From an uncultured Clostridia bacterium (GTDB taxonomy: Bacteria; Bacillota; Clostridia; Oscillospirales; Ruminococcaceae), in the NCBI GenBank assembly GCA_947623585.1, contig CANQHA010000002.1, positions 169,566-233,565 on the forward strand: a stretch of DNA of 64,000 bases, read 5' to 3'. The notes below the pieces were generated by a model, which did no database searches, had not been told where the DNA came from, and worked only from the letters and a program-made list of their open reading frames with translations. Every line of letters begins with the position of its first letter. Position 1 is the first letter of the stretch. A program made the translations under genes and the position numbers. Shown in pieces: positions 325 to 51,077 of this stretch.

Positions 325-894
325 ATGTCTTTGCTTGAAATTTTTCTGATAGGCGTCGGTCTTTCGATGGACGCCTTTGCGGTCTCCGTCACGAACGGAA
401 TGTGCAAAAGCGGAAAAACCGCCGCGATATCGCTTATGTGCGGAATATGCTTCGGAGCCTTTCAGGGCATAATGCCGTCGCTCGGGTTTGCCCTCGGCTC
501 GACCTTTTCAAGGTATATCGAGCGCTTCGACCATGTGATAGCGCTGGTGCTTCTTTGCTATATCGGCGGAAAGATGCTTTTCGACGTCGCAAGGGGAGAG
601 AGCGAAAGCTCTGGAGCGGGAAAACTTAAAATCTCCGAGCTTATCTTGCAGGGAGTTGCCACAAGCATCGACGCGCTCGCGGTCGGCGTTTCGTTCGCCG
701 CGCTGATAAACGGCGCTCAGATGGTTTTTTCGGCGCTTTTGATAGCCGCGACAACGTTTGTCATCGCCGCCGCCGGGGTTTTCATCGGCAAAAAATTCGG
801 CAGCGCATTAAACAACAAGGCTCAGGTCGTCGGCGGACTGATCCTTATCGCCATAGGGGTGAAAATTTTTGTCGAACACACATTCTTCTCTTAA
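325..894 (+). CDS. mntP: Manganese efflux pump MntP family
   Basis: 189 aa, GLSMDAFAVSVTNG and TSIDALAVGVSFA repeat motifs, multiple TM segments. Confidence 0.9.
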   Translation: MSLLEIFLIGVGLSMDAFAVSVTNGMCKSGKTAAISLMCGICFGAFQGIMPSLGFALGSTFSRYIERFDHVIALVLLCYIGGKMLFDVARGESESSGAGKLKISELILQGVATSIDALAVGVSFAALINGAQMVFSALLIAATTFVIAAAGVFIGKKFGSALNNKAQVVGGLILIAIGVKIFVEHTFFS

Positions 895-1543
895 ACTTGC
901 AATATTCGACCTCGACGGCACCGTGCTCGACACGATAGCCGATCTCAGCGACGCCGTTTGCGCCGCGCTTGAAAAAAACGGTTTTCCGCCGAGAAGCCCC
1001 GCCGAGGTGATGAGCTTTGTCGGAAACGGAGTTCTAAAGCTGATAGAGCGTTCGCTGCCCGAGGGGCATAAAGACCCCGAGACCGCGGCTTTGGTCTGCG
1101 AAGACTTCAACGCCCATTACGCCGCCCATTATGCGGACAAGACCCGCCCTTATGCGGGAATGCCCGAGCTTTTGAAAAGCCTTAAAGAGCGGGGCATAAA
1201 GCTGGCGCTTTTGTCAAACAAGCCCGACGCGTTCACAAAAGGTCTCGCCGAAAGGTTTTACCCCGATATTTTCGACGTCGTAAGGGGAAGCGGCGAAAAC
1301 ACTCCGCGAAAGCCCGACCCGACCGCCGAGCTTGAAATTATCGCGGAATTTTCCGCAAAGCCCGAGGAGTGCGTTCACGTCGGAGATTCCGACACCGACG
1401 TTATGACCGCACTGAACGCGGGAATAAGGTGCGTCGGCTGCACATGGGGCTATCGTTCGCGGCAAACGCTTGAAAGCGCCGGAGCTTTTGCGGTGGCGGA
1501 GAGTGTTTTTGAGCTTTCAAAATTTTTTGAAAAAAACAGTTGA
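869..1543 (+). CDS. HAD-family phosphoglycolate phosphatase-like hydrolase
   Basis: FDLDGTVLDT, LLSNKPD, HVGDSDTDVMTALNAG HAD motifs; overlaps the mntP end. Confidence 0.85.
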   Translation: MSNTHSSLKLAIFDLDGTVLDTIADLSDAVCAALEKNGFPPRSPAEVMSFVGNGVLKLIERSLPEGHKDPETAALVCEDFNAHYAAHYADKTRPYAGMPELLKSLKERGIKLALLSNKPDAFTKGLAERFYPDIFDVVRGSGENTPRKPDPTAELEIIAEFSAKPEECVHVGDSDTDVMTALNAGIRCVGCTWGYRSRQTLESAGAFAVAESVFELSKFFEKNS

Positions 1544-1575
1544 AAAATTTTTTCGGATATGTTATTATAATTCAC

Positions 1576-1828
1576 AGCGATCGATTTGAAACGCGATGAC
1601 TGAGAGAGTAAGCCGCGCGGGTTTTCAGAGAGGGCGGCGCTTTTTGCTGAAAGCTGCCTATTCTCAACCGGCTGAAGTTCACTCACGAGCGGTTCCGCTG
1701 AAGCCATTTTTCGGGTTGTAGGCGGAAACGATTCCGCGGCGTTAACGCGGGCGGGAGTGTTGGCTCCCTGAGGGTGGTTTATAAGCATAGCTTAAGGTTA
1801 TGTCCCGTTTCGGCGGGACATTTTTGTT
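1576..1828 (+). promoter_or_regulatory. T-box leader (Phe specifier) upstream of pheST
   Basis: GCTGAAGTTCACTC context with TTC specifier at about 1678-1680, AGGGTGGT antiterminator bulge at about 1771-1778 (UGGU matches an A-CCA tRNA end), then a GTCCCG..CGGGAC hairpin plus T tract at 1802-1826. Confidence 0.75.
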
Positions 1829-2045
1829 TGAGACGAAAGGAGAATATTATCTCCCCGACAGTTCTTTTGACTACCGCGCTGTTTATAGTTTTTTTGCTTT
1901 AGGGCAAAAAAGCCGGCGGTGAAACCGGTTCTCGTTTTTGTATCGGAGCCATCGTCGCATGGGCGCTGCGGTCAGTCTTTGCAAAGTTAAAAAATAAGGG
2001 CGCTTAAGCGTCCCTCGGAAAATATACCGAAAGGAAGAAATATCA

Positions 2046-3065
2046 ATGAAACAAGCACTTGAGAAAATTGAGCTTGCCGCAAAGGAGCAGCTCGCAAAGG
2101 TGGCGGATTCGGCCGAGCTTGAAGCCCTGCGGGTTAGGTTTTTGGGCAAAAAAGGCGAGCTCACCGCCATTTTAAAGGGCATGGCGGGGCTTTCCGCCGA
2201 GGAAAGACCTGTTATCGGTCAGCTTGCAAACAAGGTCCGCGCCGATATCGAGGAAGCCGTTGAAAGCCGCGCCGCCGAGCTTAAAGACGCCGCGATCCGG
2301 CTTAGGCTGAAAGAGGAAAAGCTCGACGTTACTCTGCCCGGAAAAGCTCCGAAGCTCGGCAGGCTTCACCCGATGGACACCGTCATGCGCGAGATCGAGG
2401 ACATTTTCATCGGCATGGGCTTTGATATTGTCTCGGGCCCCGAGGTCGAATACGATTACTATAACTTCGAGGCGCTGAATATCCCCCGCGATCACCCCGC
2501 GCGCGACACTCAGGATACCTTTTACATCAGCGACAATATTTTGTTGCGCACTCAAACCTCTTCGGTGCAGATCCATGTAATGGAGAACCGCAAGCCTCCG
2601 ATAAGAATAGTCTCGCCCGGGCGAGTTTACCGCTCGGACGCCGTTGACGCCACTCACAGCCCTATTTTCCACCAGATAGAGGGGCTTGTCGTCGATAAGG
2701 GAATAACCATGGCAAACCTCGTCGGCACTCTTGATATGCTCATGAAGCGGCTTTACGGCGACGAGTGCAAAATAAGGCTCAGACCCCACCACTTCCCGTT
2801 CACCGAGCCCTCGGCCGAGGTAGATATCGTTTGCTTCAACTGCGGCGGCAAGGGCTGCCCGATGTGCAAGGGCGAGGGTTACGTCGAGCTTTTGGGCGCG
2901 GGAATGGTCCACCCCAAGGTTTTGAAGCAGTGCGGAATAGACCCCGAGGAATATTCGGGCTTTGCGTTCGGTCTCGGGCTTGAGAGAATAGTAATGGGAA
3001 AATACGGGATAAACGACCTCAGGCTTCTCTATGAGAACGACCTTCGTTTCCTCGAGCAGTTCTGA
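2046..3065 (+). CDS. pheS: Phenylalanyl-tRNA synthetase alpha subunit
   Basis: Full-length PheS; HPARDTQDTFY, FGLGLERIVMGKYGINDLR motifs. Confidence 0.97.
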   Translation: MKQALEKIELAAKEQLAKVADSAELEALRVRFLGKKGELTAILKGMAGLSAEERPVIGQLANKVRADIEEAVESRAAELKDAAIRLRLKEEKLDVTLPGKAPKLGRLHPMDTVMREIEDIFIGMGFDIVSGPEVEYDYYNFEALNIPRDHPARDTQDTFYISDNILLRTQTSSVQIHVMENRKPPIRIVSPGRVYRSDAVDATHSPIFHQIEGLVVDKGITMANLVGTLDMLMKRLYGDECKIRLRPHHFPFTEPSAEVDIVCFNCGGKGCPMCKGEGYVELLGAGMVHPKVLKQCGIDPEEYSGFAFGLGLERIVMGKYGINDLRLLYENDLRFLEQF

Positions 3066-3082
3066 TTAAGGAGGGAAAAACT

Positions 3083-5470
3083 ATGGATCTTTCAATGAAA
3101 TGGCTTGCCGACTACGTCAAGGTCGATGTTCCGGTAAAGCAGTTCTGCTATGACCTCACCATGACCGGCTCAAAGGTCGAGGGCTACACCGTTGAGGGCG
3201 AAAAAATTAAAAACGTCGTCGTCGGAAGGCTTCTTTCGGTAGTCCCGCATGAAAACTCCGACCATCTCGTCGTCTGTCAGGTCGATGTCGGGCAGGACGG
3301 CCCGATACAGATAGTCACCGGCGCCAACAACGTCAAGGCGGGCGATCTTGTTCCCGTCGCGCTCGACGGTTCGCAGCTTCCCGGCGGACCCATCAAAAAG
3401 GGAAAGCTGCGCGGCGTCGAATCAAACGGAATGCTTTGCTCTTTGGGAGAGCTCGGGCTGACCGCCCACGACTTCCCCTATGCCGTTGAGGACGGAATTT
3501 TCATTCTGCAGGAGGACTGCAAGCCGGGCGACGACATTCACGACGCGATAGGCTTAAACGACACCTCGGTCGAGTTTGAGATAACCTCGAACCGCCCCGA
3601 CTGCCTCTCGGTGATAGGTCTTGCCCGCGAGGTCGCGGCGACCTATGCGATACCCTTTGTCGAGCCCTCGCCGAAATATACCGGAACGGCCGGCAAGGCG
3701 AGCGACACCGTCAGCGTTTTCGTCGAGAACGAGAATCTCTGCAAAAGATATATCGGCGGCGTAGTCAAAAACGTAAAGATAGCGCCGTCGCCCCGCTGGC
3801 TCAGAGAGCGCCTTCGCGCTTCCGGCGTCAGACCTATAAACAACCTCGTCGATATAACCAACTATGTCATGCTTGAATACGGCCAGCCGATGCACGCTTT
3901 CGACGCGCGCTTCATCAAGGGCGGAGAGATCCATGTCCGCAACGCCCGCGAGGGTGAGAGCATCACCACTCTTGACGGAACGGTGCGCAGTCTTTCTCCC
4001 GAAATGCTCGTCATCGCCGACGTCGAAAAGCCGGTCGCGGTCGCGGGCGTCATGGGCGGAGAATACAGCGGCATCATGGACGATACCGTTGACGTAATAT
4101 TCGAGTCCGCTTGCTTCGACGGAGCTTCGGTGAGAAGGACCTCGAAAAAGCTCGGAATGAGGACCGATTCCTCGGCTCGCTTTGAGAAGGGGCTCGACCC
4201 CGAGGGCTGTATGCCCGCAATACTCAGAGCGTTCGAGCTTGTCGAGCTTCTTGAGTGCGGCAGCCCCGTCAAGGGAGTTATCGACTGCAAAACATCTAAG
4301 CCCAAAAACAACGCCGTTGATTTTGACCCGCGCTGGATAAACCGCTTCCTCGGCACAAATATCTCCCGCAGGAGCATGGAGACCTATCTTAAGCGCCTCG
4401 GTTTTGAAGTCGTTTTGGATAAAGTCATCGTTCCGTCGTTTCGGGTCGATATCGAGTGCAAGGCCGACGTCGCCGAGGAGGTCGCGAGATTTTACGGCTA
4501 TAACAACATCGCCGGGGCCGAGCTTATAGGCGTTGCCAACGCCAAGCTGACCGACGCTCAGAAGCTGAAGCGCAGCGTTGAAAACGCCTGCACCGCTTTG
4601 GGCCTCAGCCAAATCGAGACCTTCAGCTTCATCTCCCCGAAATACTACGACAAAATAAACCTCCCCGCCGATTCAAAGCTGAGAAGCTCGGTAACTATAA
4701 CAAATCCTCTCGGCGAGGATACCTCGGTCATGCGCACCACCGTTCTGCCCTCAATGTGCGAGGTTTTGGCGCGAAACTATAATTACCGCAACGCCGAGGC
4801 CGCGCTGTTCGAGTTCGGCACCGAATATCTTCCGACCTCTCCCGAAAGCCTCCCCGAAGAGCCCGACCGCCTTTCGATAGGTATTTACGGCGGAGGAGCC
4901 GACTTCTATTCCTTAAAGGGCGTCGTCGAGGAGATCTATGAGAGCCTCGGCATCGCGGGGGTCGAATATTCCGCCGCCGACGAGGGCTGCGGCTTCGACG
5001 AGCTTTCGATGTTCCACCCCGGAAGAGTTGCGGTCGCAAAAATCGACGGCAAGCCGATGGCTATATTCGGGGAAATGCACCCAGACGTTTTGGAAAACTA
5101 CGGCTTCGGCACAAGGGTCTACTGCGCAAAGCTCAACATCACCGAGCTTTTGGCGTTAAAGCCCGCCGCAAAAGCCTATAAGCCGCTGCCGAAATACCCC
5201 GCCGCGACAAGGGATATCTCTTTGATATGCGACGACGAGCTTCCGGTCGCCGAGCTTGAAAAGCTGATAAGCAAGGCCGTCGGAAACGTTCTTGAAAAGA
5301 TCAGGCTGTTCGACGTTTACAAGGGCGAGCAGATCGCGGGCGGCAGAAAATCGGTCGCTTTCTCGATAGTTATGCGCTCGGCCGAGGGCACCCTGACCGA
5401 CGAGCAGGCCGACGCCGCAGTCAAACGCGTCAAAAAGGCGCTCGACGGAATCGGCGCCGAGGTGAGATAA
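3083..5470 (+). CDS. pheT: Phenylalanyl-tRNA synthetase beta subunit
   Basis: 795 aa with tRNA-binding domain, B3/B4, B5 and FDX-ACB domain sequence signatures; directly follows pheS. Confidence 0.97.
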   Translation: MDLSMKWLADYVKVDVPVKQFCYDLTMTGSKVEGYTVEGEKIKNVVVGRLLSVVPHENSDHLVVCQVDVGQDGPIQIVTGANNVKAGDLVPVALDGSQLPGGPIKKGKLRGVESNGMLCSLGELGLTAHDFPYAVEDGIFILQEDCKPGDDIHDAIGLNDTSVEFEITSNRPDCLSVIGLAREVAATYAIPFVEPSPKYTGTAGKASDTVSVFVENENLCKRYIGGVVKNVKIAPSPRWLRERLRASGVRPINNLVDITNYVMLEYGQPMHAFDARFIKGGEIHVRNAREGESITTLDGTVRSLSPEMLVIADVEKPVAVAGVMGGEYSGIMDDTVDVIFESACFDGASVRRTSKKLGMRTDSSARFEKGLDPEGCMPAILRAFELVELLECGSPVKGVIDCKTSKPKNNAVDFDPRWINRFLGTNISRRSMETYLKRLGFEVVLDKVIVPSFRVDIECKADVAEEVARFYGYNNIAGAELIGVANAKLTDAQKLKRSVENACTALGLSQIETFSFISPKYYDKINLPADSKLRSSVTITNPLGEDTSVMRTTVLPSMCEVLARNYNYRNAEAALFEFGTEYLPTSPESLPEEPDRLSIGIYGGGADFYSLKGVVEEIYESLGIAGVEYSAADEGCGFDELSMFHPGRVAVAKIDGKPMAIFGEMHPDVLENYGFGTRVYCAKLNITELLALKPAAKAYKPLPKYPAATRDISLICDDELPVAELEKLISKAVGNVLEKIRLFDVYKGEQIAGGRKSVAFSIVMRSAEGTLTDEQADAAVKRVKKALDGIGAEVR

Positions 5471-5637
5471 GGCGTTTTTCGCGTGAGATTTCGGTTCTCA
5501 TGCCAAAACGGGCGAGCGAAATTTATTGAATATTTACAAATATTTCAAATAGGTCTTGTTATTTCGCCGCAAATGCGTTATAATATCAAAAGGTATTCGC
5601 CGGAGCTTCAAATATCAAAACAGGAGGGCTGACTTTT

Positions 5638-5892
5638 ATGCTTAACGACCGAACAATGACGTTTTCCGTCAAGCAGGACCGCGAGGACGAGATAAAGAAT
5701 ACGCTGAAAGCTGTTTACGACGCCCTTTATGAAAAGGGATATAACCCCGTGAACCAGATAGTCGGCTATATCCTTTCGGAGGACCCGACCTATATCACGA
5801 CCTATAACAACGCTCGCAGCCTGATACGTCACATCGACCGAGACGAGCTTTTGCAGGAAATGGTAAGAAGCTATCTCAACGCCGACAAATAG
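5638..5892 (+). CDS. ireB: IreB family regulatory phosphoprotein (UPF0297/DUF965)
   Basis: [49 protein letters not shown], highly characteristic. Confidence 0.92.
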
Positions 5893-37384: not shown

Positions 37385-39322
<1,938 letters not shown>

Positions 39323-39330
<8 letters not shown>

Positions 39331-39709
39331 TGAGCACCTCCCTGTTTTTCTTGGAAATCCTTGCGGCTTTTCCTTCCCATTTTGTTTCTTCTTTCAAGCG
39401 CCCTTTGAGTGCATCGTTTACCTGAGCCATGCCCGCATGAAGCTCTGCGATGTCCTCGGCATAGAAATTGCCGGTGGTCTTCATGCGATAGGCAATCTGG
39501 TTGATGTTGCTGCCGATTTTGCTCACTGCGGCACACAGCTTTCGCAGCTCGGTGTAGTCCACATTGATGATGTAACCGTCGATCAGCATCTTGCGGGCAT
39601 ATGATCCGAAGTTGTGTGTCCCAAGCTCCGCCATCTTGGATTTGATGATCTGTTCCTCCTGATCGGTCAGGCAGATTTCCTTGCGGATAGGTCGTACTCT
39701 GTTTGCCAT
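39323..39709 (-). CDS. MobC-like plasmid mobilization relaxosome protein
   Basis: LTDQEEQIIKSKMAELGTHNFGSYARKMLIDGYIINVDYTELRKLCAAVSKIGSNINQIAYRMKTTGNFY. Confidence 0.82.
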
Positions 39710-40020: not shown

Positions 40021-40392
40021 GTGAACAGGAGGTTTAAAATGAAGTACACTAAAGCTCAAAGATTAGACATCGGACGTAAACTCTATTCCGGTGAACTCAC
40101 TCGCCGTCAGGCAGCCGAAATCTATGACATCAGCGAACAGTCGGCACGAGACTATATGAGACTGTACCGCGATTCCGAACAGCTTCCACCGAAGCAGGCA
40201 GCAAAGCATTCGGTCTCAGCTCCGTCCTTTCAAATCCCGCCTGCCGGAATGGAAGAACTTGAATCAATGACAAAGGAACAACTCATTCAAGAGATTCTAA
40301 AGGCGCGAATCACGGAGGCCCGGCTAAAAAAAGGCTACGAAGTGAAGGGGGATGGTACGGTAATTCTGTACGGCAGCAAGAATATCAAGTAA
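40021..40392 (+). CDS. IS3-type transposase OrfA (HTH protein)
   Basis: YTKAQRLDIGRKLYSGELTRRQAAEIYDISEQSARDYMRLY. Confidence 0.82.
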   Translation: MNRRFKMKYTKAQRLDIGRKLYSGELTRRQAAEIYDISEQSARDYMRLYRDSEQLPPKQAAKHSVSAPSFQIPPAGMEELESMTKEQLIQEILKARITEARLKKGYEVKGDGTVILYGSKNIK

Positions 40393-40394
40393 TC

Positions 40395-41255
40395 ATGGAA
40401 CTGTCGGGAGATTTCTCGGTAAAGCTGCTCTGTGAAACGACAGGCATACATCGCAGCAGCTTTTACAGCTGGAAAAAGCGGTTATCCAATCCGTCAAACA
40501 GGACAAGAGCATTTGTCAGTAATATCATGCTGTTTGAGGAGTATCATCTCAAATATCCGTCCCATGGATACCGTTGGCTGAACGCTAAAATACGGCTTGA
40601 TACCGGGATTGCCCTTTCCAATCCATACGCTTATAAATGCTGTAAAACGGCAGGAATCAAGAGCACGGCAAAGCATTATAAGTACAAAAAACCGGGCGAG
40701 CCTTATCGCATATTTCCGAATCTTTTGCTGTCTGAGATGCAGATCGACGGACCGTTACAATGCATAGTCAGCGATATGACTGCGTTTTACGTGAAGGGCG
40801 TCTATTATGAACTCACTCTCTACATGGACTTGTGGAACAATGAGATACTTAGCCATTCTCTATCGTCAAAGCGAGGAGACCGCATGACCTACATAAGCGG
40901 ACTGGAGGATCTGATTGAACTCAAAAAGCAGCACCCGGAATACAAAATGATTCTTCATTCAGACCAAGGTTCCGTGTATTCGTCCAAGGCTTTCAATGAA
41001 CTGTTGCCGATGTACGGCATTACCCGCTCGATGTCCCGTGCAGGGACGCCGACAGATAACGCGGCTATGGAAGCTATAAACGGTTGGATTAAAGCTGAGC
41101 TGTTTACAGATTTGCATATCACCGGTGAAAGGCCTGTGAAGAATGAAATTGATGATTACATTACATTCTTCAACGAACAGCGCCCGGCGTATTCGCTGGG
41201 GTACTTGACGCCGAAGCAGTTTAGGGAGTCCAATTATGCAGGAGGTGGTGTATAA
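40395..41255 (+). CDS. IS3-type transposase OrfB (integrase catalytic domain)
   Basis: YPSHGYRWLNAKIRL, CIVSDMTAFYVKGVYYELTLYMDLWNNEILSHS, HSDQGSVYSSKAF, SRAGTPTDNAAMEAINGWIKAE (DDE core). Confidence 0.9.
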   Translation: MELSGDFSVKLLCETTGIHRSSFYSWKKRLSNPSNRTRAFVSNIMLFEEYHLKYPSHGYRWLNAKIRLDTGIALSNPYAYKCCKTAGIKSTAKHYKYKKPGEPYRIFPNLLLSEMQIDGPLQCIVSDMTAFYVKGVYYELTLYMDLWNNEILSHSLSSKRGDRMTYISGLEDLIELKKQHPEYKMILHSDQGSVYSSKAFNELLPMYGITRSMSRAGTPTDNAAMEAINGWIKAELFTDLHITGERPVKNEIDDYITFFNEQRPAYSLGYLTPKQFRESNYAGGGV

Positions 41256-41969: not shown

Positions 41970-42515
41970 ATGGATTGGAATTTATTCTGGACGGCGTTTG
42001 GTGCAATAGGCGGAACTCTCGGAGCTATTGCAACAACAGCGGCAGTAGCTGTTGCTTTGTGGCAAACAAAATACGCGAACAAGAAAAAACTTAAAGTGGA
42101 GTTCTCAGACAATATTGTTGTCGTTCCGTCACAAGGCAATTTATCTCAGAAACGTGAGTACATCGGAATCACAGCTACAAATATTGGAAATCGGCGCATC
42201 AAAGTTTGTAATTGGCAAGTTCGTTTCCCCGACGGACATGGTGCTTTGATTGTTCAGGATATATCTCCGATAGGGAAAATGCTCGCGCCTGCCTGGCCCG
42301 TTTTGCTCGAACCGGAAGAGCAAGCCTCTCAATATTGGGAGAAGAAACTGTTCTATGCGTTCATAAAAGATGAAGCTCCTAAATACAAGAAGAGAAATAG
42401 CCGCCTTCTATGGATTGTAAAGGACAGCACCCAAAAAGAATACAGAATCAAATCACCTAAAACAATTGCAGAATATTTTGATGAGGCGGAGGCTTATTAT
42501 CATGCCCACCCTTGA
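41970..42515 (+). CDS. Hypothetical single-TM protein preceding the type III methylase
   Basis: N-terminal TM FWTAFGAIGGTLGAIATTAAVAVALWQ then a soluble domain; overlaps the mod start by 14 nt. Confidence 0.7.
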   Translation: MDWNLFWTAFGAIGGTLGAIATTAAVAVALWQTKYANKKKLKVEFSDNIVVVPSQGNLSQKREYIGITATNIGNRRIKVCNWQVRFPDGHGALIVQDISPIGKMLAPAWPVLLEPEEQASQYWEKKLFYAFIKDEAPKYKKRNSRLLWIVKDSTQKEYRIKSPKTIAEYFDEAEAYYHAHP

Positions 42516-44256
42516 ATGGATCGGAAAAGATAAAGTGATCAACCACCACCAAGAGGTTCCCTATCGGGTGCTGGAGCGGCGGTACAGCTTTGACGCGGAC
42601 GGGCAGCATGACGCCGACAACGGCAGTGAGAACATGATCATCCGGGGAGACAATCTGGAGGCGCTGAAGGCGCTGCTGCCCCGGTATGAGGGGCGCGTCA
42701 AGTGCATCTACATCGATCCGCCGTACAACACAGGCAACGAGGGCTGGGTCTACAACGACAACGTGAACGACCCCAAGATCAGGAAGTGGCTGGGCGAGGT
42801 GGTCGGTCGTGAGGGTGAGGACCTGACCCGCCACGACAAGTGGCTGTGCATGATGTACCCACGGCTCAAGCTGCTGCAAAAGCTGCTGGCGGACGACGGG
42901 GTTATCTTCATCAGCATTGACGATACGGAATACGCTAATCTTAAATTGATATGCGATGAGATTTTTGGGGTGAACTGCTTTGTTTCTAACGTCTCGTGGC
43001 AACGAACTTATTCTATGAGGAATGACGCAAAGGGGATGCCAGCTGAAGTTGAACACATATTGGTTTATAGCAAAAAAGCAAATTGGCAGCCGCAAAAGTT
43101 AGAACGCACAGAGACTATGGATTCCAAATATAAGAATCCTGATAACGATCCAAAGGGTGCTTGGAGAAACATAATTGCCAGTGCGCCCAATGCATCAACC
43201 CATCAAGGTATGGTTTATGCAATTCAAAATCCTATAACAGGTGAGTATGCTTATCCCCCGCAAGGACGATGCTGGAGTTTGGGACAAGATCAAATGTTAG
43301 AAGCTATGTGTCAATGGTGTGAGTATACTCTTGCTGATTTAGAAGATTACACTGAACGTGCTGCGGTTTGCAACTTGTCAGTTGAAGCAATTAGAAAAGA
43401 TGTCATGGCAATTGTTCTTAAAGATGACCTTTCTACGGCAAAGCGAAAGGCGGCAGGCATATACAAAAATGGTCCTCTCCCAGAATTTTTCTTCTCTCGA
43501 AATGGCTATGGGGCGTTAAGCCGCAAAGCCTACTTAAAACTGATGGGCGGACGTCCTATGACAAACTTATGGCCGTTTGAAGAGGCTGGCCATACAGATG
43601 AGGCTTCAAGACTGTTGAAGGTTATTTTTGATGGTACATCCGTTTTTGATACACCAAAACCGCCTCGTTTGATTGAGAGAATTCTACATATTGTGGGAGG
43701 TCGAGACACGCTCATTCTCGACTCCTTCGCCGGTTCCGGCACCACCGCTCACGCCGTTCTTAACATGAACAAGGCAGACGGCGGCAACCGTAAGTTTATT
43801 CTCGTCGAGATGATGGACTACGCCGATTCCATAACCGCCGAGCGGGTGAAGCGCGTCATCCGTGGCTACGGTGAGGGCAAAAATGCCGTAGAGGGTACAG
43901 GCGGCGATTTCAGTTTCTACGACCTCGGCGAGCCGCTTTTGATCGGCGAAAACCTCAACGAAGCCGTGGGGACGGAAAAGATACGGGAGTATGTGTGGTT
44001 CATGGAGACAAAGTCTCCCTACACTCCTGCCGAGAGCGATAATACATATTTCCTCGGACGCCACAACGACACGAGCTACTATTTCTACTATGAGCCGGAG
44101 CGGATCACTGTCCTCGACTATGCGTTCCTCTCCGGCGTCACGGAGAGATCCGGCGGAACCGTTATCTACGCCGACCGCTGCGCCCTCGGCGAGGACAAGC
44201 TCGCGCAGATGGGGATCGTGTTCAAAAAGATCCCCCGCGACATCAGCAGACTGTAA
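42502..44256 (+). CDS. Type III restriction-modification DNA methyltransferase (Mod)
   Basis: CIYIDPPYNTGNEGWVYND (DPPY), LILDSFAGSGTTAHAVLNMN (motif I); 585 aa from ATG 42502. Confidence 0.93.
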   Translation: MPTLEWIGKDKVINHHQEVPYRVLERRYSFDADGQHDADNGSENMIIRGDNLEALKALLPRYEGRVKCIYIDPPYNTGNEGWVYNDNVNDPKIRKWLGEVVGREGEDLTRHDKWLCMMYPRLKLLQKLLADDGVIFISIDDTEYANLKLICDEIFGVNCFVSNVSWQRTYSMRNDAKGMPAEVEHILVYSKKANWQPQKLERTETMDSKYKNPDNDPKGAWRNIIASAPNASTHQGMVYAIQNPITGEYAYPPQGRCWSLGQDQMLEAMCQWCEYTLADLEDYTERAAVCNLSVEAIRKDVMAIVLKDDLSTAKRKAAGIYKNGPLPEFFFSRNGYGALSRKAYLKLMGGRPMTNLWPFEEAGHTDEASRLLKVIFDGTSVFDTPKPPRLIERILHIVGGRDTLILDSFAGSGTTAHAVLNMNKADGGNRKFILVEMMDYADSITAERVKRVIRGYGEGKNAVEGTGGDFSFYDLGEPLLIGENLNEAVGTEKIREYVWFMETKSPYTPAESDNTYFLGRHNDTSYYFYYEPERITVLDYAFLSGVTERSGGTVIYADRCALGEDKLAQMGIVFKKIPRDISRL

Positions 44257-44271: not shown

Positions 44272-46884
44272 ATGGAGATGAAAACATATCAGAAAAAGGT
44301 GATTGCCGACCTCGTTCGCTATCTGGAACTGCTGAACGAGACGCGTGACAGCGGTGCTGCGTTCTACCACTTCTGGCGCGAAAAGAGCGCACCGTCTCTC
44401 GGTATCTATCAGGACATCCTGCCGGGTGTGCCGAATTTGTGTTTCAAAGTTCCCACGGGCGGCGGGAAGACGTTCATCGCCTGCAATTCTGTGCGCACGA
44501 TTTTTGACGCTCTGCCCGTCACAAAGACGAAAGCGGTCGTATGGCTTGTGCCCTCCGACGCGATCCTCACCCAGACCGTCAAGGCGTTGAAAGATGTCCG
44601 CCACCCGTACCGGCAGAAGATCGACGTGGATTTCGGCGGGCGCGTTGAGGTCTATACGAAAGAAGAACTTTTGAACGGGCAGAATTTCAATCCCACCGCC
44701 GTCACGGAACAGCTTTCGATCATGGTGCTGTCTTACGACTCGTTCCGTGGTCGCGGCAAAGAAGTGCTGAAAGCCTATCAGGAGAACAGTAATCTTGCTA
44801 ACTTCGCGAAAGTGCTTGGCAAGCCGGAAAATCCCATCGAAAAGGCGGACGAGTCCGCGCTGTTTCAGATCATCAATCAGTTGTCGCCCCTCGTGATAGT
44901 GGACGAGAGCCACCACGCACGGTCTGAACTTAGCATCGAGATGCTGGCAAATTTCAATCCCTGCTTTGTGCTTGATCTGACGGCTACGCCGAAAAAGGAG
45001 AGCAATATCATCTCTTATGTGGACGCTGTGCAGCTCAAGAACGAGAACATGGTGAAGCTGCCCGTGATCGTCTATAACCGGGACAGTCAGACAGAGGTTC
45101 TGACCGACGCCATTGACTTGCGGAACAAGTTAGAGGAAATCGCCGTCGCGGAACAGAAAAAGACGGGACGGTATATCCGCCCTATCGCATTGTTTCAAGC
45201 TCAGCCAAAGGGCAAAGAGGACGCGACGACATTTGAAAAGCTGCGGGAAAAGTTGATTGGCGCCGGAATCTCTGCGGAGCAGATCGCGATCCGCACTGCC
45301 GATGTGAACGAGCTGAAAAATGTAGAGCTGATGTCGCCGAACTGTCCGGTGCGGTATATCATCACTGTCAATGCGCTCAAAGAGGGCTGGGACTGCCCGT
45401 TTGCCTACATATTGGCGTCACTTGCCAACAAGACGAGCCAAGTGGATGTGGAGCAGATTCTGGGGCGTATCCTCCGACTGCCGCATACTGTCCAGCACAG
45501 CCAGCCCGCGCTGAATATGTCCTATGTGCTGACATCCTCCAACGATTTCGATGAGACAGTTCGCCGCATCATTCGTGGGCTCAACAGCGCCGGATTCAGC
45601 GATAAGGATTACCGCCTGTCCGCGCCGGTCGCCCCGAAGCCGGTTGTTCCCCATGAGCCGGAACAGCTTGAGATTCAACAGCCGGAAGCGTCTGATGAGG
45701 ATAATTTCGACGATGTAGACGGCGAGGCGATTGGAAAAGAGCTGGAGCGGCGTCGTGCGCAGGGCGAGACACCCGATGTACCCCAGAAAGCAGTGGATAT
45801 GCTGACAGAAGCGGAAAAAGCGGGGCAGGACTACGACGAAGCGCGTAATGGTGCGGAGAATGATCCCTACACAAATGTCCTCCCGTGGGAGGTGCGTGAC
45901 AAGGTGACGACTTTCTATGTTCATCCGCAGTTTCGGGGCGATGTGGAGAATTTGATGATTCCACAGTTTTTCCATGTGGTGCCGGAGTCTCTTTTTACCG
46001 AAGGAACGCTGGAGCTGTTGGAAAAGGAACAGCTTGCGGAGGGCTTTACGCTGAAGGGCAAGGCATATGATATTGACTTCGGTTCTGCGGACGATGAGAT
46101 TGCCAAGGTCGATGTCCGGCAAAGCGAAGGCGGTCTACCGAAGGTGTTCAAGATGTCCAGCGCCGACCAGCGGTATTTCAAAGAGTATTGCAACAGCCTG
46201 CCGCCGGAAAGCCGTGTGCGTCAGTGCAAGGATATGATGTTCTCTCAGCTTAACAAAATGAACACGGTGGACGCCGCCGAGCTGAGGGCCTATATTGACT
46301 TGATCGTTGGGACGATGGACAAAGCCCAGCTTGCCGCTATGGAAAAAGCGCCGCTCGGCTACGCTGCGAAGATCAAGGCGAAGATTGAATTACTGCTGAC
46401 GGAGCATTACAAGGAAACCTTTGCCCGTTGGCTGGAGACGGAACGCATCGTCTGCCGTCCGTCGTACCGTCTGCCCGTGTGCATCCATCCGATGGACAAT
46501 ACGGACATGATCGGCGGGTCGCTCTATCAGGCGGAGGAAGACATGAATCAGCTTGAGCAGGACTTGGTGATGGAGCTGACCGCTCTGCCCAACGTCCGCT
46601 GGTGGCATCGGAACATTGCGAAGCACGGCTTTTGCATCAACGGCTTTATCAATCACTACCCGGACATTATGCTGATGACGAACAGCGGGAAGATCATTCT
46701 TGTCGAGACAAAAGGCGAGCATCTGAAAAACGATGACAGCCGCGATAAAATCGCCCTCGGTCAGGCATGGCGCAACGCGGCGGGCAGCCAGTTCAAATAT
46801 TACATGGTGTTCGCCGACGGTGCCGAACCGCTGCCGGGAGCGGTGGGGATGAAGCAGTTCATGGAAATCGTGAAAGACATATAA
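44272..46884 (+). CDS. Type III restriction endonuclease helicase subunit (Res)
   Basis: CFKVPTGGGKTFIACNSVR Walker A, VIVDESHHARSE, ALKEGWDCPFAYILASLANKTSQVDVEQILGRILR; C-terminal DIMLMTNSGKIILVETKGEHL nuclease motif. Confidence 0.93.
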   Translation: MEMKTYQKKVIADLVRYLELLNETRDSGAAFYHFWREKSAPSLGIYQDILPGVPNLCFKVPTGGGKTFIACNSVRTIFDALPVTKTKAVVWLVPSDAILTQTVKALKDVRHPYRQKIDVDFGGRVEVYTKEELLNGQNFNPTAVTEQLSIMVLSYDSFRGRGKEVLKAYQENSNLANFAKVLGKPENPIEKADESALFQIINQLSPLVIVDESHHARSELSIEMLANFNPCFVLDLTATPKKESNIISYVDAVQLKNENMVKLPVIVYNRDSQTEVLTDAIDLRNKLEEIAVAEQKKTGRYIRPIALFQAQPKGKEDATTFEKLREKLIGAGISAEQIAIRTADVNELKNVELMSPNCPVRYIITVNALKEGWDCPFAYILASLANKTSQVDVEQILGRILRLPHTVQHSQPALNMSYVLTSSNDFDETVRRIIRGLNSAGFSDKDYRLSAPVAPKPVVPHEPEQLEIQQPEASDEDNFDDVDGEAIGKELERRRAQGETPDVPQKAVDMLTEAEKAGQDYDEARNGAENDPYTNVLPWEVRDKVTTFYVHPQFRGDVENLMIPQFFHVVPESLFTEGTLELLEKEQLAEGFTLKGKAYDIDFGSADDEIAKVDVRQSEGGLPKVFKMSSADQRYFKEYCNSLPPESRVRQCKDMMFSQLNKMNTVDAAELRAYIDLIVGTMDKAQLAAMEKAPLGYAAKIKAKIELLLTEHYKETFARWLETERIVCRPSYRLPVCIHPMDNTDMIGGSLYQAEEDMNQLEQDLVMELTALPNVRWWHRNIAKHGFCINGFINHYPDIMLMTNSGKIILVETKGEHLKNDDSRDKIALGQAWRNAAGSQFKYYMVFADGAEPLPGAVGMKQFMEIVKDI

Positions 46885-46905: not shown

Positions 46906-47577
46906 ATGGCTACACAAAGATTATCGATATGCACGGTAAAAATCAAAAATTCTATTACTTGGGATGCGGTTGTAAATAACCTGCTCAATTTTATTTCAGA
47001 GGATATCCATTGTGAGGTGACAGAACAAACAGATACATATATCGGAGGTTGTTATATAGCTAAAGTAATGCAAAATCAAACTCAATATAATATTGAGACT
47101 GGTTCCTTTGAAACTACACCGGTTGCTCGGATGCAGATTCTTAGATTTGACATTTTCCCTTCCAAATGTCTAATGATGCTATGGGGGAAAAAGAAGGTCT
47201 CCACATTATTTACAACAGCCTTACAACAAGCAGCTATCAATAATTTGATTATTGACTACAACAAACTTGACTATAAGATTATGATTACCAAGTTATTCTC
47301 AAACTCAAAAGTAATTTTCACAAGAATGAATATTACAGATGTAGTGATTGAGCATGGCATTGTTGCCAATTGTAGTGTAAATTTGACTAATCAAGATAAT
47401 TCACATGGACTGGTTAGAAAATACCTTGACAATATATCTCAAATATCAGTTCAATTTGATGAGAACACCCCGACTTCCCTGATGATTTATTCAAGCGGGG
47501 CAATCGTTACCTATCGCAATAGGGATGATATTCCATCGGATATCATTGATGACATAATAACAATGATTGGGGGATAA
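46906..47577 (+). CDS. Hypothetical protein, possible bipartite TBP-like fold
   Basis: 223 aa; C-terminal half GIVANCSVNL...TSLMIYSSGAIVTYRNRDDIPSDIIDDIITMI resembles a TBP repeat pattern; RBS gaggaaggtg before ATG. Confidence 0.8.
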   Translation: MATQRLSICTVKIKNSITWDAVVNNLLNFISEDIHCEVTEQTDTYIGGCYIAKVMQNQTQYNIETGSFETTPVARMQILRFDIFPSKCLMMLWGKKKVSTLFTTALQQAAINNLIIDYNKLDYKIMITKLFSNSKVIFTRMNITDVVIEHGIVANCSVNLTNQDNSHGLVRKYLDNISQISVQFDENTPTSLMIYSSGAIVTYRNRDDIPSDIIDDIITMIGG

Positions 47578-47583
47578 TAAAAT

Positions 47584-48525
47584 ATGGGAGAAGCAGCAAG
47601 AAAAATCGGCGAAAAACTCGAAAACTTTGGTAGCCTTTTCTTTACAGATCTAGGATGGACAGAAATTATAAGGGATAAAGAGATAAAATGTACCAGATCT
47701 TCCCATGGAGGAAAAAGGAGCCATGGAATTGATCTGCTATTTGAGACATATAACCCATATCTTTCTTGTAATCAGGGAATTGTTTTAGAATGCAAAAATC
47801 GGCAGATGCAATCAATAACGAAGGCTGAAATTGAAAAATGGGTCAAAGAGCTCATAAATTGTATTGAATGTGCCCAGTCTGCTCCAGAATTGAGCAGTTA
47901 TAATATGGCAGACTTTTCATTAAATACAGGGTTATTGGTTATTCATGCAAATGATAAGTTTGATAGGGAGAAATTCTATTCACATGTAAGTGGGATAAGC
48001 GTTCCACGAAGAAGATCTCCAATCAATATTTATATTGCCGCAAATGACAGAATTAACGAATGGACAAGCTTATGTAAAAAAATAGCGGAATTTGGGGAAG
48101 ATTTTAATTTGTTATATCCTAGTATAAACGGGTCAAGTAAGTTGTTGACAAAATCATTCTCTATTAATTCGCTTTTTTCCAAATACAATTTTGCTACTAG
48201 TAAATATTTTGAAGAAAGGCAAGGGTCAGGGGGACCCTATAAGGAGCCACATTCTCAAAGCATTTTAATCTTTCGAGATGAGGTTACAGCGAGCAATTTC
48301 AAATACGCGTGGAGTATGTTTAAGTATTATCAGTTACAAGGAGCAGACAGATATGTGTTTTTGTTTTATCCAATGGATTCTGGAGATGTAGAATATGTCA
48401 AAGAGCATTTCATTTCAACATTGAAAAGTGGTGACAATCCAATTAGTGAGCAAGAAGCGCAAAAAATTGTTATTGAATTTATAGACAATCGCTCGTTATC
48501 TCCCGTAGAGATAGGAGGAATATAA
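47584..48525 (+). CDS. PD-(D/E)XK nuclease-like protein
   Basis: GSLFFTDLGWTEI...HGIDLLFETYNPYLSCNQGIVLECKNRQ: D50 and E69-C-K71 in PD-(D/E)XK arrangement. Confidence 0.8.
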   Translation: MGEAARKIGEKLENFGSLFFTDLGWTEIIRDKEIKCTRSSHGGKRSHGIDLLFETYNPYLSCNQGIVLECKNRQMQSITKAEIEKWVKELINCIECAQSAPELSSYNMADFSLNTGLLVIHANDKFDREKFYSHVSGISVPRRRSPINIYIAANDRINEWTSLCKKIAEFGEDFNLLYPSINGSSKLLTKSFSINSLFSKYNFATSKYFEERQGSGGPYKEPHSQSILIFRDEVTASNFKYAWSMFKYYQLQGADRYVFLFYPMDSGDVEYVKEHFISTLKSGDNPISEQEAQKIVIEFIDNRSLSPVEIGGI

Positions 48526-48527
48526 TT

Positions 48528-49637
48528 ATGTTTACGGAATATACAGATTGTACAGAGTTGATGAGACTCATTTCAGATCAAAAAATTAAACCTTCGGCAA
48601 TTAGAAGGTATATGGGTAAGCAGGGTGTAATGCTCACAGCTACAAGTGCATCCGATATAGCTAAGGATATTTATACAATTATGCTTGGCGGAAAGGAAAT
48701 GGAGCAAATTACGCATTTAGTCGCTAGTGAGGGAAATTACGAAAAATCTACATTGATAAATGCAAAGATGAACGATACCTCAAAATCAGGAATAGACATC
48801 CTTGATTGTTTTTCAGATGCAATTAATCGCTTAAAAGTCCAACCGTTTAGGAGCTTTTCTATAGACCAACCTATAAAAACAACAAATGAAGAATTAACCG
48901 TTTCATTTTCATATGTGCGAAATCTTCCGGGCAAAAATAGACTTATTGATTCGGAGAAACGAAGCGTAAAGATTAATATACGAAAGCGAGATGCAAATAA
49001 TGTGTCTATTGACATTCGGCACGCATCTTCGTTTGATGCTAAAAATGCGCTGGAATTACTTGATAAGATTGTTGCACCGATCGATGATAGTACTAATGAT
49101 AGCGACGTCAATCTTTCTCACGTTAATCTTGGAATATTGACTGACAAAAACAGAGTTGCTTTTTTTGATAAACTTTCTGCACACATTTTCAATGCTTGGC
49201 GCCTAAAAACAATTACAAGTATTACAGTACAACGAGGTACTTGGGCCGATGATGAGAATGAAGCAGAAGAAATTACTGATGATAGTGATCCAACAGGTAC
49301 TCTTGCTGGCATAAACCAAGCCGTGTTGAATGGAAGCGGGTTAAGGTCCAATTCGTTTGTTCAGAGTTCACTTGAACAAGGTTACATTATTTCTGCAATG
49401 AAATATAGATATGAATGCACAAAAGAAGCAGGAGAATTTATCGTTGGCATAAGTTCTCGAAGCAAAGATCTTAGAGTAGATATTGAAAAGTCATATTGTG
49501 ACGAAGATGGAAAATTATATATTCAACCGTTCCCTCGTTCACAGCAAGATGAGATTATACAACTATTTCAGAATGCGGCTAATTCTGTCTTTTTAGAATT
49601 ATGTAACGAGCAACAACATGCGCTTAATCCAATATAA
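48528..49637 (+). CDS. Hypothetical protein, third gene of the cassette
   Basis: 369 aa; 2 nt after the nuclease stop, RBS ataggagg; no family recognised. Confidence 0.78.
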   Translation: MFTEYTDCTELMRLISDQKIKPSAIRRYMGKQGVMLTATSASDIAKDIYTIMLGGKEMEQITHLVASEGNYEKSTLINAKMNDTSKSGIDILDCFSDAINRLKVQPFRSFSIDQPIKTTNEELTVSFSYVRNLPGKNRLIDSEKRSVKINIRKRDANNVSIDIRHASSFDAKNALELLDKIVAPIDDSTNDSDVNLSHVNLGILTDKNRVAFFDKLSAHIFNAWRLKTITSITVQRGTWADDENEAEEITDDSDPTGTLAGINQAVLNGSGLRSNSFVQSSLEQGYIISAMKYRYECTKEAGEFIVGISSRSKDLRVDIEKSYCDEDGKLYIQPFPRSQQDEIIQLFQNAANSVFLELCNEQQHALNPI

Positions 49638-49650
49638 TAATGAAGAAACG

Positions 49651-49690
49651 CAGCCATACCCAGATGAATTTCCGAGTATGGCTGCTTTCC
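49651..49690 (+). terminator. Terminator-like hairpin at the end of the cassette
   Basis: gcagccatac...gtatggctgctttcctt. Confidence 0.6.
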
Positions 49691-49808
49691 TTGTTGCACC
49701 CCTGTTTGGCAACTACCCAATATCACTACTGTTTCGATACTGTTTTATTGGAAGCTGTCCCATGGGTCTGCTCTTTTTATATAATTGCGAATAATGCCGA
49801 TAAGCTCG

Positions 49809-51077
49809 TTATTCCTCCGGCTTTTCTTCCTCCGAAGCCTCGGGCTCCTCGGGGGAAACGGTTATTCTCACCCGAAGGATTCGCTGCTCGTCAACCGACA
49901 CCACCTTGAAGTGGAAGCGCCCGCAATCGACCTCTTCGCCGGGCTCGGGGATACGGTCGAGGTTTTCCATAACGAGTCCGCCGATAGAGTTGCAGTCGGT
50001 CTCGATCTCGTCGGGGTCAAGCTCGATGTCGGCAAGAAAATCTCTGACCGAGAGGTCGGCCGAGACCTCATATTCGTTCTCACCGATAGGCACAAACGAG
50101 GTGTCCTCCTCGTCGGTCTCGTCGTAAATTTCGCCGACGAGCTCCTCGATAATATCCTCCATGGTGACGATACCCTGCGTGCCGCCGTACTGATCGACGA
50201 CGACCGCCATATGAGTTTTAGCCCGCTGCATCTGCTGCATAATATCCGAGATCGGCGTGAGCTCGAATATGTAGAGCGGCTTTTGAATTATCTCGCGGAT
50301 ATCGCGTCTGCCGTTGAGATACATATCGAAAAAGTTTTTTTCGTGAATTATTCCGACGATAGAATCTATCGTTTTTTCATAGACGGGAAGCCTTGAAAAG
50401 TGCGAGGTTATAAAGGCGTCCTTGATCTCCTCGGGGCTTTGGTCGATCTCGACCGCCGAGATATTCACCCTCGGAATCAGAATTTCGCTGATGGTTATAT
50501 CCGAAAATTCGAGCGCGCTTTTAACGAGATCGCTTTCATTTTCGTCGAGAACGCCCTCGTCCTCGATCTCGTCGATGATATATTTCAGCTCCTCTTCGGT
50601 CATCGTCGGAGAATCCTTTGAGCCTCCGCAAAGCCTTATGACAAGATTTTTGAGCCGAATCAGAAGCCAAACGAGCGGCGTGAGGATTATCAGAAGTCCA
50701 TATAAAGGATAGGCTATGAACATCGACACCGTTTCCGAGAATTCGTTTGCGATGTTTTTGGGGATTATCTCGCCGAAGATGATGACCAAAACCGTCATCA
50801 CCGCCGTCGATACCGGCACATATTTCGCGCCGAAGCGCATTGAGATCATTACCGTTGCGACGGTGGTCGAGGCGAGGTTCACAACGTTGTTTCCGATTAA
50901 AATCGTGGTGAGTGTTTTGTCAAAATTGTCGGTAAGTTTAATAGTCATTTTAGCCCGCTTGTTGCCGTCCTCGGCATAGCTGCGTATGCGCACCTTATTG
51001 ACCGAAGAAAGCGCAGTTTCCGACGCAGAAAATAAAGCGGACAGTATCAGAAGTATGACTATTATGAACACGTCCAT
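49809..51077 (-). CDS. CNNM/CBS-domain transporter (CorC/HlyC hemolysin family)
   Basis: LLILSALFSASETALSSVNKVRIRSYAEDGNKRAK, MTEEELKYIIDEIEDEGVLDENE, CBS and CorC_HlyC C-terminal domain. Confidence 0.93.
   Translation of the reverse strand: MDVFIIVILLILSALFSASETALSSVNKVRIRSYAEDGNKRAKMTIKLTDNFDKTLTTILIGNNVVNLASTTVATVMISMRFGAKYVPVSTAVMTVLVIIFGEIIPKNIANEFSETVSMFIAYPLYGLLIILTPLVWLLIRLKNLVIRLCGGSKDSPTMTEEELKYIIDEIEDEGVLDENESDLVKSALEFSDITISEILIPRVNISAVEIDQSPEEIKDAFITSHFSRLPVYEKTIDSIVGIIHEKNFFDMYLNGRRDIREIIQKPLYIFELTPISDIMQQMQRAKTHMAVVVDQYGGTQGIVTMEDIIEELVGEIYDETDEEDTSFVPIGENEYEVSADLSVRDFLADIELDPDEIETDCNSIGGLVMENLDRIPEPGEEVDCGRFHFKVVSVDEQRILRVRITVSPEEPEASEEEKPEE

Follow-up and report, generated by a model that had tools for sequence, protein, structure and literature searches.

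A sister branch of the 3HP system located behind a type III restriction-modification operon in a Clostridia bacterium

A three-gene system with "no clear predicted domain" has been described from the hotspots of P2 phages, where it protects against phage P1 (Rousset et al. 2022, PMC9122126), and is carried in DefenseFinder as Rst_3HP. From their names and the P2 location, the PADLOC models Hp1, Hp2 and Hp3 are read here as the same system. A tblastn search with g3, the last gene of the cassette described below, found a relative in P2-like phages of Klebsiella and E. coli, in which a 227-aa gene lies next, after the Hp1 and Hp2 counterparts; the three phage genes match PADLOC Hp1, Hp2 and Hp3, each with E <1e-150.

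A second related system is GapS4 (NF047933/NF047934), which consists of two genes, without an RdgC-like partner, in the two above-cut-off loci checked (Pantoea and Ewingella). GapS4 relatives carry an antiphage annotation, and the biology of GapS4 is taken here from NCBIfam names. The RdgC/RexA/Iml3-Chl4 family is also relevant. The Iml3-Chl4 pair has been reported to resemble RdgC as well as TBP (PMC4080450). Lambda RexA is a DNA-binding protein that has a fold in common with RdgC and is a component of a phage exclusion system (PMC11077077).

Organization of the locus and its type III R-M neighbour

The window is the whole stretch of 64,000 nucleotides of Clostridia DNA that was analysed. The features around the cassette genes g1, g2 and g3 are as follows.

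42466..44256, + strand: type III mod methyltransferase (Pfam N6_N4_Mtase E 1.4e-35; PADLOC MTase_III E 5.6e-199)
44272..46884, + strand: type III res subunit (Pfam ResIII E 6.2e-18)
46906..47577, + strand: g1, intact ORF of 223 aa
47584..48525, + strand: g2, intact ORF of 313 aa
48528..49637, + strand: g3, intact ORF of 369 aa
49650..49685, no strand: terminator-like palindrome with a 15-bp stem, between the convergent g3 and CBS-domain gene
49756, no strand: right end of the block shared with contig L014, 53 nt before the CBS-domain gene
49809-51077, - strand: chromosomal CBS-domain gene, convergent with g3

The three tightly spaced ORFs reported by the first-pass annotation are confirmed at their coordinates, with 21 nt between the res stop (46884) and g1, 6 nt between g1 and g2 and 2 nt between g2 and g3. 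Their AT-richness, also reported there, is equally clear: the GC contents of g1, g2 and g3 are 34.4, 35.2 and 36.1% (GC3 33, 30 and 27%), respectively, compared with 50.6% for mod, 54.3% for res and 51.2% for the window. In the comparisons made, dN/dS was 0.04-0.30, which indicates purifying selection on the cassette genes; these values, together with the unchanged order of g1-g2-g3 across genomes, place the cassette beyond chance. The hairpin proposed after g3 is present as the 15-bp-stem palindrome, but the match to a terminator pattern was on the - strand; the structure is terminator-like and perhaps bidirectional. It lies inside the block common to the window and L014 (96%).

The true start of mod is probably the ATG at 42502. 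The start listed above is overlapped by a gene at 41970-42515, whose 181-aa product begins with a hydrophobic helix and matches no family.

The cassette had been described as fused to the end of the type III R-M operon and as a possible R-M accessory module. Its position agrees with the former description, but nothing beyond position does. As an accessory, the three proteins would assist, regulate or back up Mod-Res; the cassette lies on the same strand as res and close behind it, which makes co-transcription probable, and no strong private promoter was seen for it. The GC content differs from that of mod-res, none of the other complete cassettes found has mod-res beside it, and none of 14 related res loci contains the cassette. 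With linkage absent in both directions, the accessory reading was rejected as very improbable, and the R-M link is regarded as incidental. Mod and res are treated as neighbours outside the system that may share a transcript with the cassette, and the difference in base composition fits a separate arrival of the latter. The genes found directly after type III res differ at nearly all of the related loci (L070-L082), which suggests that accessory genes are inserted at this spot.

Kinship of the three proteins with 3HP and GapS4

All three proteins are remote homologues of 3HP subunits. The g2 protein matches PADLOC Hp1 (E 0.0084) and NCBIfam GapS4a (E 2.1e-16, 60 bits against a cut-off of 270 bits), and the profile of its family matches that of the Hp1 family with a probability of 98.3. 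The g3 protein matches PADLOC Hp2 (E 2.2e-11), NCBIfam GapS4b (E 2.4e-12, 46 bits against a cut-off of 300 bits) and phrog_6531 (E 6.8e-17), and the g3 and 3HP Hp2 families align in hhalign with a probability of 98.3. On these grounds g3 is an Hp2/GapS4b-family protein. The g1 protein gave no useful match in Pfam, PADLOC, NCBIfam, PHROG or PDB sequence searches, whereas the g1 and Hp3 families align in hhalign over 200 columns (probability 98.0, E 2e-13). This homology is visible by profile-profile comparison only; an early comparison with few sequences gave P 0.004, and the relationship became clear only once more members had been added. All eleven control pairs between different subunits scored <1.

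Several weaker matches were also recorded. The g3 profile matches the two GapS4 loci of Pantoea and Ewingella weakly (probability 23). Its PDB match to CHRAC-16 (E 0.045) and weak GapS4b-like matches (E ~1e-3) at L003, L012 and L013, where there is no cassette, were attributed to chance.

The homology of the cassette to 3HP-GapS4 is well supported by these sequence profiles, and it overturns the earlier view of the cassette as undescribed: all three proteins match a named system, and two of them also match GapS4, at remote homology only and with a different gene order. In the cassette and throughout its branch the order is Hp3-Hp1-Hp2, whereas proteobacterial loci have Hp1-Hp2-Hp3. In a tree of g2 plus g3 the two order classes (Firmicutes, a Halobacterium plasmid and a gut phage scaffold versus Proteobacteria) form separate clades with support of 96/95 and 100/100, and the g1/Hp3 tree gives the identical split (92/96); deep placements are tentative owing to the long branches of Halobacterium, the gut phage and GapS4. 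The cassette resembles 3HP in its three contiguous genes, its carriage by mobile elements and its conserved PD-(D/E)XK motif. It differs in its order and carriers, and identity to the 3HP or GapS4 proteins is ~10-20%. Comparison with the PADLOC models, one of the two sets that had been suggested, gave matches to Hp2 and, barely, Hp1, but none to the Hp3 model. GapS4 differs further in that every complete locus of the cassette branch has a third gene, and g2 and g3 fall far under the GapS4 cut-offs.

Because gene order and HMM matches differ from those of 3HP, the cassette is filed as a variant branch and not as a 3HP member: g1-g2-g3 represents a branch that is sister to 3HP, has GapS4 as a relative and scores below the threshold of current models. 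Standard defence scanners probably miss this Hp3-Hp1-Hp2 branch, so its frequency is likely to be underestimated. What is new here is that the loci divide by gene order, that the group extends to Firmicutes and haloarchaea, and that its third subunit has a predicted fold of the RdgC/RexA type. 3HP, GapS4 and the sub-threshold branch are joined in one superfamily across Firmicutes, Proteobacteria and haloarchaea.

Predicted folds and proposed mechanism

The AlphaFold2 model of g1, built with six native sequences as input, has a pLDDT of 88.6 and a pTM of 0.80. Its top Foldseek match in the PDB is E. coli RdgC (2owl; E 4.5e-8, probability 1.0, TMq 0.62), followed by Iml3/CENP-L and CENP-N, with RnlA domains lower down (ranks 14, 17 and 47). 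Among viral models it matches phage RdgC proteins, with a viral TFIID near the threshold, and one member of the g1 family has a weak Pfam TBP match (E 0.0043). The g1 protein is thus an Hp3-family protein predicted to have the RdgC/RexA/CENP-L-N (TBP-like, DNA-clamping) fold. The TBP fold tentatively assigned by the first-pass annotation is borne out in this prediction, since Iml3-Chl4, which is among the matches, resembles both RdgC and TBP. Unlike g1, RdgC is ~300 aa long, and the RdgC/RexA/Iml3-Chl4 family differs from g1 in that it has no sequence-level match to it and in that g1 shares an operon with a nuclease-like protein. The pI of g1 is 5.6 and Firmicutes g1 proteins in general are acidic (pI 5.0-6.2), unlike typical non-specific DNA binders, which is a caution against DNA binding by g1.

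The g2 model (pLDDT 82.4) has an N-terminal helix-strand-strand-strand-helix-strand arrangement, that is, an alpha-beta-beta-beta-alpha-beta core, carrying the putative catalytic residues D50, E69 and K71 as a D-[E/D]xK motif. These positions are kept in 15 of 15 three-gene loci, with D50 invariant and position 69 either E or D; the aligned positions differ in the two GapS4a proteins of Pantoea and Ewingella. Foldseek gave weak matches to HamA and Can2 (probability 0.97-0.98, E ~0.01). Low-TM Argonautes ranked above these and headed the list, and it is mainly the motif and the topology that support the nuclease fold. The earlier assignment of g2 as nuclease-like is upheld on this basis, and g2 is a putative PD-(D/E)XK nuclease-like protein of the Hp1/GapS4a family.

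The reading favoured here, with a probability of about 0.6, is that the cassette belongs to a divergent Firmicutes/archaeal branch of 3HP-GapS4, with Hp3 moved to the front, and works as a DNA-sensing licensed nuclease. The RdgC/RexA-like g1 would bind or clamp DNA; its probable substrates are intermediates of replication or recombination, or else foreign DNA. The g3 protein may have a coupling or regulatory role, and g2, once licensed, would cut nucleic acid and thereby stop the invader or the infected cell. We infer these activities, a g1-g2-g3 complex and its trigger. The target may be a phage or another mobile element. The block of P1 by the three-gene P2 relative was counted for a defence role of the cassette; anti-phage defence by the Clostridia copy would follow by analogy, protection against P1 being reported for the P2 copy only. 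A C-terminal helix-hairpin-helix (HHH) tail, putatively DNA-binding, on the Halobacterium copy of Hp2 was counted for the DNA-acting model.

The nuclease could instead be an abortive-infection toxin that attacks RNA (e.g. tRNA or mRNA), in which case g1 would regulate it or bind its substrate. PD-(D/E)XK folds include RNases, and RnlA, found among the lower matches of g1, is a T4-restricting RNase toxin; this reading is unlikely, given that the DNA-binding RdgC and CENP-L/N stand far above RnlA among those matches and that one Hp2 has the putative DNA-binding tail.

In the DNA-sensing reading, the cassette can be compared with Hachiman (HamA-HamB), a defence complex in which an effector nuclease is likewise teamed with a sensor that engages DNA; HamA was one of the weak matches of g2. 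The cassette differs from Hachiman in that a helicase is absent and the sensor would be RdgC-like. The so far unexplained Hp3 gains a testable predicted identity as an RdgC/RexA-like DNA clamp, and the candidate clamp with the putative nuclease triad may offer a first mechanistic handle on a system described as lacking any clear predicted domain. A broader and doubtful extension is that 3HP-like systems in general are clamp-licensed nucleases, in which an RdgC/CENP-N-type clamp senses phage replication or recombination structures and activates the PD-(D/E)XK nuclease. If that were true, the TBP-like clamp fold of RdgC, RexA and CENP-L/N would be a recurring immune sensor, spread over Firmicutes, Proteobacteria and haloarchaea.

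Distribution and mobility

The g1-g2-g3 cassette was found at ~11 distinct loci, among them loci in Halobacterium and in prophages; two of the ~11 (L085 and L086) were found after the models had been made. Relatives of g1 lie directly upstream of g2 in all complete Firmicutes cassettes, on the Halobacterium plasmid and on the gut phage scaffold. The order g2-g3-Hp3 was found in 7 proteobacterial loci. Members of the Hp3 family follow Hp2 in a Pf-type phage and on plasmids of Ralstonia, Pseudomonas, Vibrio, Enterobacter and Azospirillum. The family is rare and occurs in its own genome and 2 of 392 genomes of the class. The conserved three-gene order that was to be looked for recurs, and at the other complete cassettes found it does so without type III R-M neighbours.

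The carriers are prophages, plasmids and recombinase-linked islands, and the neighbours of the other complete cassettes include serine recombinases, lysis genes, integrases and a P-loop NTPase. This agrees with the earlier description of a mobile, defence-type three-gene cassette. Such frequent carriage, together with the predicted RdgC fold of g1, could also point to a module with a recombination or anti-RecA role that works for the carrier element instead of in defence, RdgC being an inhibitor of RecA. We consider this improbable: the P2 relative, when tested, blocks P1 (PMC9122126) and sits in hotspots of dispensable defence genes, and the GapS4 relatives are annotated as antiphage.

In the window, sequence reading of the left part of the island identified a large serine recombinase (37385-38881, - strand), a MobC-like mobilisation protein (39323-39709, - strand) and an IS3-type transposase pair (40021-41255, + strand). 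These genes are consistent with a mobilisable integrated element. No clean empty site beside the CBS-domain gene was found in genomes of the same genus, and the left flank is rearranged.

By blastn, positions 47231-49756 share 96.4% DNA identity with L014, a contig of a MAG labelled Acetatifactor that begins inside g1, so that the comparison takes in this interval. Either the DNA was transferred recently or the MAG was binned wrongly. The L014 copy has a 5-nt frameshifting deletion near the start of g3 (L014 ~1345-1365), which means either that the copy has decayed or that the assembly is wrong there.

Two further loci deserve mention. The filamentous-type Pseudomonas phage 54-4 carries a 3HP cassette (485-3252) at one end of its genome, and its third gene, Hp3, is already annotated as an RdgC-like exonuclease. 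In the clostridial locus L085, the cassette is followed at 3830-5809 (reverse complement) by a gene encoding a 659-aa P-loop protein (GDWGCGKT) that looks like a KAP-type NTPase.
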